DNA of 11,553 bases from Tannerella sp. (lineage in GTDB: Bacteria; Bacteroidota; Bacteroidia; Bacteroidales; Tannerellaceae), in NCBI GenBank assembly GCA_031268395.1, contig JAIRXI010000253.1, forward strand, positions 1 through 11,553. Reading direction: 5' to 3'. The position numbers and the translations under genes were made by a program. Below the pieces are notes generated by a model. The model saw only the letters and a program-made list of their open reading frames with translations, was not told where the DNA came from and searched no databases. Shown here one piece after another: positions 28-8,163 of the stretch (its first letter is position 1; each line of letters begins with the position of its first letter).

Positions 28-95
28 ACGGCACACGGCGCGCTGTCCTGCAATATCGGGTAGAGGTATGAAAAACGACATTTTGAAATGCACCC

Positions 96-258
96 GGTTT
101 GCCCGTCAGGGCATTCATATCCATAGCATACGAATATCTCCCTGCAAGATGCTACTCCGTATGGAGTTCAACAGCCGGTTTGATCGCTTTTTCTATTGAC
201 ATGAGTGCCCTGACGGGCAAACCCCGTTCATCGTTTATCGTTCATCGTTCATCGTTAA
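96..258 (+). repeat. Dispersed inverted-repeat element, copy 1
   Basis: Copy 1 of a family seen three times here. The left arm (96-118) and right arm (201-225) are inverted repeats built on gcccgtcagggc and gccctgacgggc, with one mismatch in the shared part. A partly decayed inner palindrome lies near 154-169. The right arm runs into heptamers cgttcat (225-258) ending in cgttaa, but the matching left heptamers are missing. The plus-strand frame stays open through the element and matches the plus frame of copy 2. The minus frame is broken by a TAG in the inner palindrome. The copy lies just beyond the terminator of the di-heme oxidoreductase operon. It looks like a non-autonomous element with no transposase; what moves it is unknown. 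Confidence 0.8.
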
Positions 259-4727: not shown

Positions 4728-4790
4728 GGACACAGCCCCGGCAGGTGTCCGCCGTGCTTTTTCGTTCACATTCCGTCCCGGCTGGGACGG
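4728..4790. other. Two hairpins beside repeat copy 2
   Basis: Two stem-loops in succession. The first is ggacac/gtgtcc (4728-4733 with 4745-4750), followed on the plus strand by gccgtgcttttt. The second is ccgtccc/gggacgg with a ggct loop (4773-4790), ending 4 bp before repeat copy 2. The first has the look of a plus-strand terminator, yet no plus-strand gene precedes it here, so it may be a remnant or part of an RNA. No gene is seen between 4580 and 4794. Confidence 0.4.
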
Positions 4791-4794
4791 GCCT

Positions 4795-4981
4795 TCATGA
4801 ACGATGAACGATGAACGATGAACGGGGTTTGCCCGTCAGGGCATTCATATCAATAGCATATGAATATCTCCCCGCAGGATGGAACTCCATACGGAGTTCA
4901 ACAGCAGGTTTACTCGCTTTTTCTATGGATATGAATGCCCTGACGGGCAAACCCCGTTCATCGTTCATCATTCATCGTTAA
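4795..4981. repeat. Dispersed inverted-repeat element, copy 2 (complete)
   Basis: The complete copy. Four heptamers atgaacg (4797-4824) lead into a 25-bp arm (4824-4848) that is perfectly inverted at 4931-4955, followed by heptamers cgttcat to the final cgttaa. Together the inverted ends reach about 50 bp with about one mismatch. The centre holds a near-palindrome, gaactcc-atac-ggagttc (4872-4889). Both strands are open: plus 4811-4981 (56 codons, MNDERGLPVRAFISI... to SSFIIHR) and minus 4968-4795 (57 codons, MNDERGLPVRAFISI... to SSFIVHRS). It lies between the divergent porin and mla promoters. The frames may be a by-product of structure, so no CDS is called. It is best read as a non-autonomous, MITE-like or REP-like element. 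Confidence 0.85.
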
Positions 4982-4990
4982 TAAGAGGTC

Positions 4991-5010
4991 GTGTCTAATG
5001 GACATGTTGG
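4991..5010 (+). repeat. 20-bp dispersed repeat, copy A
   Basis: The 20-mer gtgtctaatggacatgttgg occurs here and, without mismatch, at 7041-7060. It contains a small dyad tgtc-taatg-gaca. Flanking bases differ between the two copies. This one starts 10 bp after the end of repeat copy 2. It may be the terminal remnant or target motif of another mobile element. Confidence 0.7.
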
Positions 5011-5077
5011 GTTTATGGCAGCCACACAGCAAACCTTCGTTTCGGGCAGACAACCTCATTTCCACCTCCTTTTAATA

Positions 5078-5217
5078 ACAAAACAACCTCAGTAGCAAGC
5101 AGGCAGCAGATATTACGGGCGGACCTCATTACCTCCTTATCCCGTACGGCTACAAGGAATAAGGCAATGAGGTTTTGCCGGAGGGTTCATGCCTGCTTGC
5201 TACTGAGGTTGTTTTGT
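5078..5217. repeat. MITE-like element with 28-bp perfect inverted repeats
   Basis: Perfect 28-bp inverted repeats at 5078-5105 and 5190-5217 (core cctcagtagcaagcagg). Past both ends the match continues imperfectly through AT-rich bases. The 84-bp centre contains a second, weaker stem: cctcatt and ccttat (5124-5140) against ataagg and aatgagg (5159-5172). No frame codes for a transposase and no clear target duplication is visible. The whole would fold into a long hairpin as DNA or RNA. It lies between repeat copy 2 and the mlaE promoter. A non-autonomous insertion element is the likeliest reading; a structured RNA or terminator is possible. Confidence 0.75.
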
Positions 5218-5290
5218 CATAAAATCAGGTGGAAGCGATACGGCCCCGAGCAGACAGTTCAACTTCCGCTACCGGGAATAAGTCATATTA

Positions 5291-6855: not shown

Positions 6856-6985
6856 TAACGATGAACGATGAACGGGGTTTGCCCGTCAGGGCATTCCTAT
6901 CAATAGAAAAAGCGATCAAATCGGCTGTTGAACTCCGTATGGAGTTCCATTCGGCAAGGGCGACATTCGTATGCTATGGATATAC
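6856..6985. repeat. Dispersed inverted-repeat element, copy 3 (one end lost)
   Basis: Begins with aacgatgaacgatgaacgg seven bases after mlaF, then the same 25-bp arm (from 6874). The interior is the reverse complement of copies 1 and 2: gaactcc-gtat-ggagttc at 6930-6947, and ttcgtatgctatggatat near 6966-6983. The expected second arm is absent; sequence departs from the family after about 6985. A plus-strand frame from 6861 reads MNDERGLPVRAFLSI, like the minus frame of copy 2. The rest of the gap (6986-7112) contains a C- and T-rich stretch, the second 20-bp repeat and no gene. The element sits between the convergent mlaF and korB. Confidence 0.8.
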
Positions 6986-7040: not shown

Positions 7041-7060
7041 GTGTCTAATGGACATGTTGG
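7041..7060 (+). repeat. 20-bp dispersed repeat, copy B
   Basis: An exact second copy of gtgtctaatggacatgttgg (first at 4991-5010). It lies in unrelated flanking sequence, but again close downstream of a copy of the inverted-repeat element. Identity over 20 bases makes chance unlikely. Confidence 0.7.
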
Positions 7061-7112
7061 AATTATATCTCAATGCCAACCACGTTTAGTCTACTTCGCT
7101 GGGAAGATTTTG

Positions 7113-7148
7113 TGAACGACGAACGTCATCGTTCATCGTTCATCGTTA
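7113..7148. repeat. Heptamer hairpin overlapping the end of korB
   Basis: tgaacgacgaacg (7113-7125) and cgttcatcgttca (7130-7142) form a 13-bp stem with one mismatch and a tcat loop, and the run continues to cgttaa (7148). The repeats match the heptamer ends of the dispersed element and could be the displaced right end of copy 3 or a solo end. The minus-strand korB stop codon lies in the loop. The stem has no U-run, so it may act as an mRNA end barrier rather than an intrinsic terminator. Confidence 0.7.
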
Positions 7149-8163
7149 AATCCTTGATTTCCCAGACTTCGCCGCTCATCAGCAGGTCATACAGTTTGCG
7201 TACCGGTTTGCCGGCCTGGACTTCGCTGATTTGCTGCGCTACGGATTCGTCATAGGCAGGCGCTTCCACATCGCGGATCACACCCGTCGCCACCGGCAGG
7301 CCATCTCTCATCATGGCCAGCATCATGTGCAGCGTCATGTCCTGTTCGTGCGCGTCGTGCACCAGTATGTCTTCCGGCGTATAGCCGTCTTCGCCAACGA
7401 TCACCGCTTTCAGTTTCAGCCCGTCCAGCACAAGCCCTTTCTCCCGGTGCTGTCCGAACAGCATCTTTTCGCCGTGACGGAGCGCGATGGTTTTTTCCGC
7501 ACGAAACGTCCTGTCGGTAATCGCTCTGTGTATTCCGTCATTGAAGATTACGCAGTTGTCCAGCACTTCCACCACGGAGGTCCCCCTGTGCCGCGCTGCG
7601 GCGACAAAGACTTCGGTCTGGCTGGCCAGCTCTGCGTCAATCGCCCGGGCAAAAAACCGGCCGCGTGCACCCAGCGTCAGTTCTGCCGGAATAAACGGGT
7701 CTTCCACCGTGCCGAACGGCGAACTTTTTGAAACAAATCCGCGGTCGGAAGTCGGGGAATACTGTCCTTTCGTCAGGCCGTATATCTTGTTATTCATCAG
7801 GATAATGTTCAGGTCGACATTACGCCTTACGGCATGGATAAAGTGATTGCCTCCGATGGCCAGACAGTCGCCGTCACCCGTAATCAGCCAGACGCTCAGG
7901 TCCGGACGGGCGGTTTTCACGCCTGTGGCAATGGCGGCTCCACGTCCGTGAATCGTATGAAATCCGTACGTATTCATGTAGTAGGGCAGGCGCGACGAAC
8001 ATCCGATGCCGGAAATCACCGCTATCCGGTGGGGCGGAACGTTCAGTTCGGCCATGGCCTTGTGCAGGCTGTTCAGGGTGGCGTAGTCGCCGCAGCCCGG
8101 ACACCAGCGTACATACTGGTCGCTTTTATAATCCTGGGGGGTATAGTTAACGTCTGTATTCAT
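7126..8163 (-). CDS. korB: 2-oxoacid:ferredoxin oxidoreductase beta subunit (KorB)
   Basis: A 345-residue thiamine-diphosphate subunit. The start at 8163 is chosen because tggagg precedes it at good distance and it lies 4 bp after the korA stop; a longer frame up to 8289 would overlap korA. WCPGCGDY (20-27) supplies two cysteines for the 4Fe-4S cluster, with Cys55 (GIGCSS) and Cys204 (DNCVIFND) as the other likely ligands. The ThDP/Mg motif runs from GDGD (97-100) to NN (124-125), followed by KIYGLTKGQYSPTS as in the family. With KorA it would convert a 2-oxoacid and CoA to acyl-CoA and CO2 with reduction of ferredoxin, probably 2-oxoglutarate to succinyl-CoA or the reverse. The last residues TMNDER and the stop come from the heptamer repeat, so the native end was probably near IKDL. 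Confidence 0.95.
   Translation of the reverse strand: MNTDVNYTPQDYKSDQYVRWCPGCGDYATLNSLHKAMAELNVPPHRIAVISGIGCSSRLPYYMNTYGFHTIHGRGAAIATGVKTARPDLSVWLITGDGDCLAIGGNHFIHAVRRNVDLNIILMNNKIYGLTKGQYSPTSDRGFVSKSSPFGTVEDPFIPAELTLGARGRFFARAIDAELASQTEVFVAAARHRGTSVVEVLDNCVIFNDGIHRAITDRTFRAEKTIALRHGEKMLFGQHREKGLVLDGLKLKAVIVGEDGYTPEDILVHDAHEQDMTLHMMLAMMRDGLPVATGVIRDVEAPAYDESVAQQISEVQAGKPVRKLYDLLMSGEVWEIKDLTMNDER

Follow-up and report, generated by a model that had tools for sequence, protein, structure and literature searches.

Rickettsia palindromic elements are palindromic repeats with an open frame that are known for in-frame insertion in genes. Two of them, RPE-4 and RPE-6, are equated with CGTC REPs in the available text of PMC3733652. 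REP and BIME sequences, which include GTAG- and CGTC-tagged families, are described, as far as the accessible parts of PMC3733652 and PMC2817692 go, as short palindromic units with heterogeneous stems that are multi-copy and intergenic, form inverted pairs and often lie behind genes, and the latter source puts REP copy number at usually >100. For Bacteroidetes, the available text of PMC6006769 reports atypical REPs associated with TnpA subclass 2.6; for subclass 1.2 TnpA, it gives the motifs WQ and YIKNQKEHH, and its table has a "no" for flanking REP structures. The Bacteroidales also include Porphyromonas gingivalis, whose BrickBuilt MITE combines terminal inverted repeats with tandem repeats of 23 nt in its interior (available text of PMC4596501). 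Finally, QMITE1 of Coxiella burnetii contains ORFs, the peptides of which are annotated as DUF1658 (accessible part of PMC5896051).

Here, we analysed a stretch of 11,553 nt from a Tannerella sp. genome (the window, which is the whole contig) that contains three copies of a repeat family. We suggest, with a probability that we put at roughly 85%, that copy 2 and its relatives are REP/BIME-like intergenic repeats that are likely non-coding. In this arrangement, two inverted hairpin-plus-box units are capped by heptamers, and the layout itself is the likely source of the reading frames seen on the two strands.

Copy 2 forms a near-perfect palindrome (4797-4982) with 60-nt arms that are 95% complementary and separated by 66 nt (Table 1). 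Exact tandem heptamers are present in 30 of 37 loci of the same genome, some of which were found via the heptamers alone. Copy 3 sits 8 nt behind the stop codon of an ABC ATPase gene. Between copy 2 and the mlaE gene there is a second inverted repeat with 35-nt arms (5071-5105 and 5190-5224; 94% complementary). A 26-nt repeat, GTGTCTAATGGACATGTTGG..., is found behind copies 2 and 3 (4991-5016 and 7041-7066; 92% alike), and part of it is also present in L035 and L036. The hairpin that abuts copy 2 represents a second REP-like family with the hairpin CCGTCCCGGCTGGGACGG and, in full units, the box AATGTTGGTAGAAA; its 23-mer has 25 exact copies in the same genome and none in the other 60 genomes searched. 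A hairpin of this second family lies within 60 nt of 8 of the 27 repeat copies compared vs 1.7% of points placed at random in these loci.

Table 1. Positions of the repeat copies, their parts and neighbouring elements in the window.
Feature	Position	Strand	Description
Copy 1	77..252	+	Same family as copy 2; left cap swapped for another module, GACATTTTGAAATGCACCCGG; right heptamers kept
Hairpin of second REP-like family	4768..4790	-	ACATTCCGTCCCGGCTGGGACGG; abuts copy 2
Minus ORF of copy 2	4795..4968	-	57 aa (ATG at 4968), or 58 aa from ATG at 4971; judged incidental
Left cap	4797..4824	+	(ATGAACG)4; exact tandem heptamers
Plus ORF of copy 2	4811..4981	+	56 aa; judged incidental
Left arm	4825..4856	+	Hairpin, then TTCA, then box
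Left-arm hairpin	4830..4843	+	TGCCC(GTCA)GGGCA
Left-arm box	4848..4856	+	TATCAATAG
Middle	4857..4922	+	66 nt; holds inner palindrome
Inner palindrome of middle	4882..4899		GAACTCCATACGGAGTTC; inner stem paired in both predicted folds
Right arm	4923..4954	-	Box and hairpin (4936-4949); 60-nt arms 95% complementary
Right-arm box	4923..4931	-	TATCCATAG
Right cap	4955..4982	-	(CGTTCAT)n; degenerate; TAA at 4979-4981 as read on +
Copy 3	6857..6983	-	Same family in reverse orientation; ACTCCTGCGGA-type end in place of far arm
Lone heptamer tract	7126..7149	-	Gives last codons and stop of TPP-enzyme gene (LTMNDER, stop)

The repeated unit is about 30 nt long and consists of a hairpin with a GTYA loop, followed by 4 nt and the box TATCMATAGA. 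Among the 111 boxes of the fetched loci, 83 are directly preceded by a stem of at least 5 bp, compared with 3.6% after shuffling, and these stems represent 35 distinct hairpins in a set that was partly gathered by the core pattern or by BLAST with the own repeat and is biased to one hairpin (37/83). Of the 83 hairpins, 60 have the loop GTCA or GTTA, and 61 are separated from the box by 4 nt. The stem covaries: over 88 distinct rows, all of which were used, the score was 0.321 compared with 0.139 (sd 0.015) in shuffled and at most 0.169 in slid controls, and 77 stem cells were changed on both sides vs 37.7 in shuffles. Two of the five measures fell within the shuffles, namely double-change pairs (6 vs 5.0; reached by 126 of 500 shuffles) and further pair types (18 vs 15.6; 55 of 500), and the outermost stem pair was unpaired in 59 of the 88 rows. 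The box columns are invariant because the box was the search key. The stem varies with pairing kept while loop and box are nearly fixed, and we infer from this that the unit is functional when folded as a single strand. Units were found singly, in tandem (L047) and as inverted pairs around a middle; the inverted pairs amount to 41 two-box copies over the fetched loci, with 11 in the own genome and 30 in others. In the own genome, these pairs are often capped by heptamers, while some copies have another module at this place.

In the own genome (G000), BLAST detected at least 93 matches spread over 37 contigs, at many places on both strands; this number includes heptamer-only places and is a lower bound as 40 of 169 candidates were scored. 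None of the 27 compared copies lies wholly inside a recognised gene, with the context being one-sided for copies at contig ends; for this comparison, genes were ORFs of at least 150 aa, which in the window were taken by hand from the ORF list. Twenty of the 27 copies are at most 300 nt from a contig end, where ~8% would be expected and, therefore, the repeat probably breaks the assembly. At L010:273-755 (minus strand), a mechanical ORF of 160 aa without a Pfam match runs through copy C181b into the edge of copy C181a; its RHCEERSN...PRNDG stretch presumably resembles another translated repeat.

Among 61 genomes, the own repeat was found by BLAST in 19, G000 included, and the single-box pattern in 15. 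Thirteen of the latter are among the 37 genomes of the genus, again including G000, and five genus genomes have 7-23 copies; a reversed-pattern control gave at most one match per genome, and the two matches in genomes of other genera are no more than their own control gave. When a strict spacing of two boxes was required, 1 of the 61 genomes matched, and G000 itself was missed. G067 contains 61 exact 20-mers, and in an order-wide draw of 393 genomes, which held only one other genome of the genus, the exact 20-mer was present in two (G000 and G319). The exact core was found in 42 stretches from Bacteroidales, Prevotellaceae, Tannerella, Dysgonamonadaceae and a Bacteroidia genome. Many of the assemblies with the exact core are from termite guts. 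Searches for carriage by phages or plasmids gave no match, and the exact 29-mer was absent from viral contigs; no tRNA was detected in the repeat. A clean empty site was not found among the relatives fetched, in which the mlaE flanks are non-syntenic. A literature search, covering few subscription journals, returned no published description of this repeat family.

The original prediction that copy 2 is open on both strands was confirmed, as were the matching termini of the two peptides, which share MNDERGLPVRAFISI close to the N-terminus and NALTGKPRSSFI(I/V)HR close to the C-terminus, with one extra S in the minus peptide. Similarly, copy 1 retains the plus-type frame (AYEY..., starting with the TTG at 99) with a TAG in the other frame, while copy 3 retains the minus-type frame (EKAIK..., in an 84-aa ORF from 6861). 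The matching termini follow from the layout. Read from the opposite strand, an element with the structure A-M-rc(A) becomes A-rc(M)-rc(A) and, therefore, has identical termini in the same frame; because the start is equally far from the distal arm on both strands, the frame at that arm is necessarily the same. The tail RSSFIVH comes from the heptamer CGTTCAT, which contains no stop and gives this reading in all three frames, through which the tract passes because the repeat length is 7 nt. In the opposite heptamer, ATGAACG, ATG and TGA are in staggered frames; the repeats supply an ATG, and its tandems have a TGA in every frame. Thus, given palindrome geometry and heptamer properties, the start, the tail and the register require no selection. 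It had also been argued that random DNA of this length is rarely open on both strands, and this did not hold for 20,000 elements generated by dinucleotide-preserving shuffles, 9-13% of which were open. When the arm geometry was kept, 9.05% were open on both strands in one frame and 11.2% if the frames could differ; keeping the true arms and shuffling the middle gave 12.9%, and dropping the palindrome gave 12.3% with any combination of frames and 4.8% for frames at one offset. Of the two readings originally offered, arm geometry is supported while selection for readability is not.

Under the selection reading, the repeat would be a coding or translation-tolerant insertion, the frame of which is maintained by selection to allow copies to reside in genes or to yield a small peptide. 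We consider this highly improbable. It is favored by the observation that 7 of the 11 two-box copies in the own genome are open on both strands. Among the 14 of the 27 aligned copies that have both arms, 7 are open on both strands; the rest have an in-frame TAG or TGA or frameshifting deletions, and such copies, with deletions of 1, 4 and 8 nt and a recurrent in-frame TAG (GGATAGCTC and the like), coexist with the open ones in the own genome. The check that had been proposed, counting stops and synonymous and nonsynonymous changes in the ORF frames over these 27 copies, gave distinct changes that fit neutrality. After dropping clusters at module junctions, 144 of 231 substitutions were kept, 77 of which are distinct. 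In frame +1, the distinct substitutions comprised 22 synonymous, 50 nonsynonymous and 3 stop changes (expected 21.2, 52.9 and 2.2) and in frame -1 23, 52 and 1 (expected 19.6, 55.0 and 1.9). By contrast, the per-copy count of all 144, which repeats changes shared by descent, has a synonymous excess (+1, 49 vs 38.9, P 0.035; -1, 54 vs 38.4, P 0.004) and a nonsynonymous deficit (+1, 85 vs 99.4, P 0.009; -1, 87 vs 100.9, P 0.009). This is the result that leans most towards coding, and we read the excess as the inheritance of a few diagnostic sites; in the same count, stops are not depleted in frame +1 (7 vs 4.7 expected) and hardly so in frame -1 (2 vs 3.7). Outside the own genome, just 1 of the 30 two-box copies is open on both strands, their lengths modulo 3 are distributed 12/6/12, and 64 single units have a 27-codon read-through equally often in the ORF frame (21/64) and in another frame (21/64), in a set that includes 20 G067 stretches chosen from its 61 exact places; the third frame has none (0/64), being closed by a TAG within the box. 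When 5.8 billion proteins were searched by a method that required shared 5-residue words, three relatives of the plus peptide were returned from four candidates. These relatives, one of which is identical over the core to the own-genome copy C233 and comes from a contig of equal length (6158), speak for coding, but three are few among that many proteins, and neither the plus nor the minus peptide has a Pfam match. The absence of all compared copies from recognised genes argues in the same direction. Based on the neutral proportions of the distinct changes, the stops and frameshifts in copies and the poor conservation of the frame elsewhere, coding selection was rejected, and the frame appears not to be under the purifying selection expected of a protein-coding gene.

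The remaining alternatives concern what a non-coding repeat would be kept or spread for. It could be an RNA element at gene 3' ends, i.e. a terminator or an mRNA-stabilising hairpin that is kept for transcript folding. The stem covariation is consistent with this idea, as is the finding that 9 of the 18 gene 3' ends facing copies are no more than 32 nt away or overlap slightly (8 of 17 if the mechanical ORF of 160 aa is left out). However, 12 gene 5' ends also face copies, one of them within 32 nt. The predicted RNA fold of copy 2 is very strong (z -16.4), which also favors this idea, but a near-palindrome folds strongly anyway, and the DNA fold has a z of -16.9. There is no Rfam match at the gathering threshold, and 24 of the 37 genus genomes lack the exact box pattern, although some of these have related hairpins. 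Altogether, we regard an RNA element as unlikely, and a MITE as somewhat more doubtful still. In a MITE, the heptamer tracts or the arms would be the terminal inverted repeats of an insertion sequence with a transposase acting in trans. The inverted ends, the small size and the many copies would fit such an element; also, heptamer tracts occur not only alone but, in opposite orientation, bound other interiors as well (L024, L031, L036, L040, L041). Against this, no direct repeats of 3-10 bp were detected at the ends of the seven copies walked, two of which (C233 and C301) have doubtful or cut ends, and the ends differ from copy to copy, being heptamers, GACAGGTTGAAATGCGCCCGG or another hairpin; the transposase search covered the Y1 family.

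Returning to the REP/BIME-like reading, we asked how the family relates to Y1 transposases. No Y1 (PF01797) gene was found in G000 (82% complete), G015 (99%), G066 and G067, all of which carry the family, while G068 and G070 have both. Among the 13 genus carriers of the box, eight are without a Y1 gene found and five have one; thus, the distribution of Y1 genes does not follow that of the repeat. Within 500 nt of the 33 Y1 ORFs that were recognised in 65 loci, there is no TATCMATAGA box, nor was one found at Y1 genes in a set of 20 loci. For these reasons, a transposase-driven spread of the window family is something that we infer. In G019, a Y1 gene is flanked on either side by hairpins with an analogous TTGGTAGAAA (GGTAGAAA) box, and in G024 such hairpins are present at one flank. 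For a wider count, 35 of the 65 loci were used, in which the ORF was recognised and each flank had at least 150 nt, and 33 of these have a Yxx.Q Y1 gene; the same GC-rich hairpin, with one mismatch allowed, was found on both flanks in 14 of the 33, compared with none of the controls (29 mlaE loci and 101 random points). L078, L087, L080, L215, L217, L245 and others are among the loci with flanking hairpins. By the motifs WQ, Yxx.Q and HH, 24 of 37 recognised Y1 genes resemble subclass 1.2, an assignment that is motif-based, and nine of them have a hairpin on both sides.

We suggest a model in which the unit would be a substrate that is copied or moved on single-stranded DNA, most likely by a Y1-type (REP-associated) transposase, which may act in trans or may now be lost. 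The number of heptamers would change via replication slippage, and any role of the repeat at gene 3' ends would be secondary. More tentatively, and aware that this wider proposal may well be wrong, we speculate that the family is part of an undescribed Bacteroidales REP superfamily, characterized by GTYA-loop hairpins, free co-varying stems and the TATCMATAGA box, and that the TTGGTAGAAA-box hairpins flanking Y1 genes with subclass 1.2 motifs are its sister family. Those Y1 proteins would then be the REP-makers of the phylum, one of which would have spread the window family in trans or before it was lost. The present results provide the Bacteroidales with a REP-like family that has a clear consensus and, for its sister family, with a testable candidate transposase class. 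The striking double-strand ORF comes nearly free from mirror-image repeats and, as such, is a trap for small-protein annotation; one such peptide is already recorded as a "hypothetical protein".

How does the window family compare with the known systems? Unlike Rickettsia palindromic elements, it has 0 of 27 copies in a recognised gene, with the context one-sided at contig ends. Like QMITE1 in the available text of PMC5896051, it is a short repeat that contains ORFs; the QMITE1 peptides have their own DUF, whereas those of the window family match no Pfam entry and, for the plus peptide, have few known relatives. With BrickBuilt, as described in the accessible part of PMC4596501, it shares the occurrence in Bacteroidales and an inverted-repeat element tied to a tandem repeat, but its heptamers lie outside and its ends are variable, in contrast to the internal tandem repeats and terminal inverted repeats of BrickBuilt. 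The atypical REPs of TnpA subclass 2.6 (available text of PMC6006769) are similar in being from Bacteroidetes, in lacking a GTAG tag and in having copies elsewhere in the genome. Unlike the subclass-associated REPs in that text, the window family lies next to no Y1 gene that was recognised; as for subclass 1.2 TnpA, the available text lists no flanking structures, whereas the relatives' Y1 genes with such motifs are often flanked by hairpins. In comparison with REP/BIME, there is no GTAG/CGTC tag at the foot of the hairpin, where by eye the feet are mostly TTCA-like on the box side and CGTC occurs only across stem and loop; no RAYT gene flanked by the window family was found in G000 (82% complete) or among the 33 Y1 ORFs recognised, nor was any adjacent transposase gene, the copies seen are below the number usual for REPs in the accessible part of PMC2817692, and the TATCMATAGA box 4 nt past the hairpin and the heptamer caps are features of its own. 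Nonetheless, the window family has a palindromic unit of 20-40 nt that is multi-copy and extragenic, and its units are arranged in inverted or tandem pairs. Thus, in its short palindromic units with heterogeneous stems, its many intergenic copies, its inverted pairs and its frequent position behind genes, it is like REP/BIME as described in the available text of PMC3733652 and PMC2817692.
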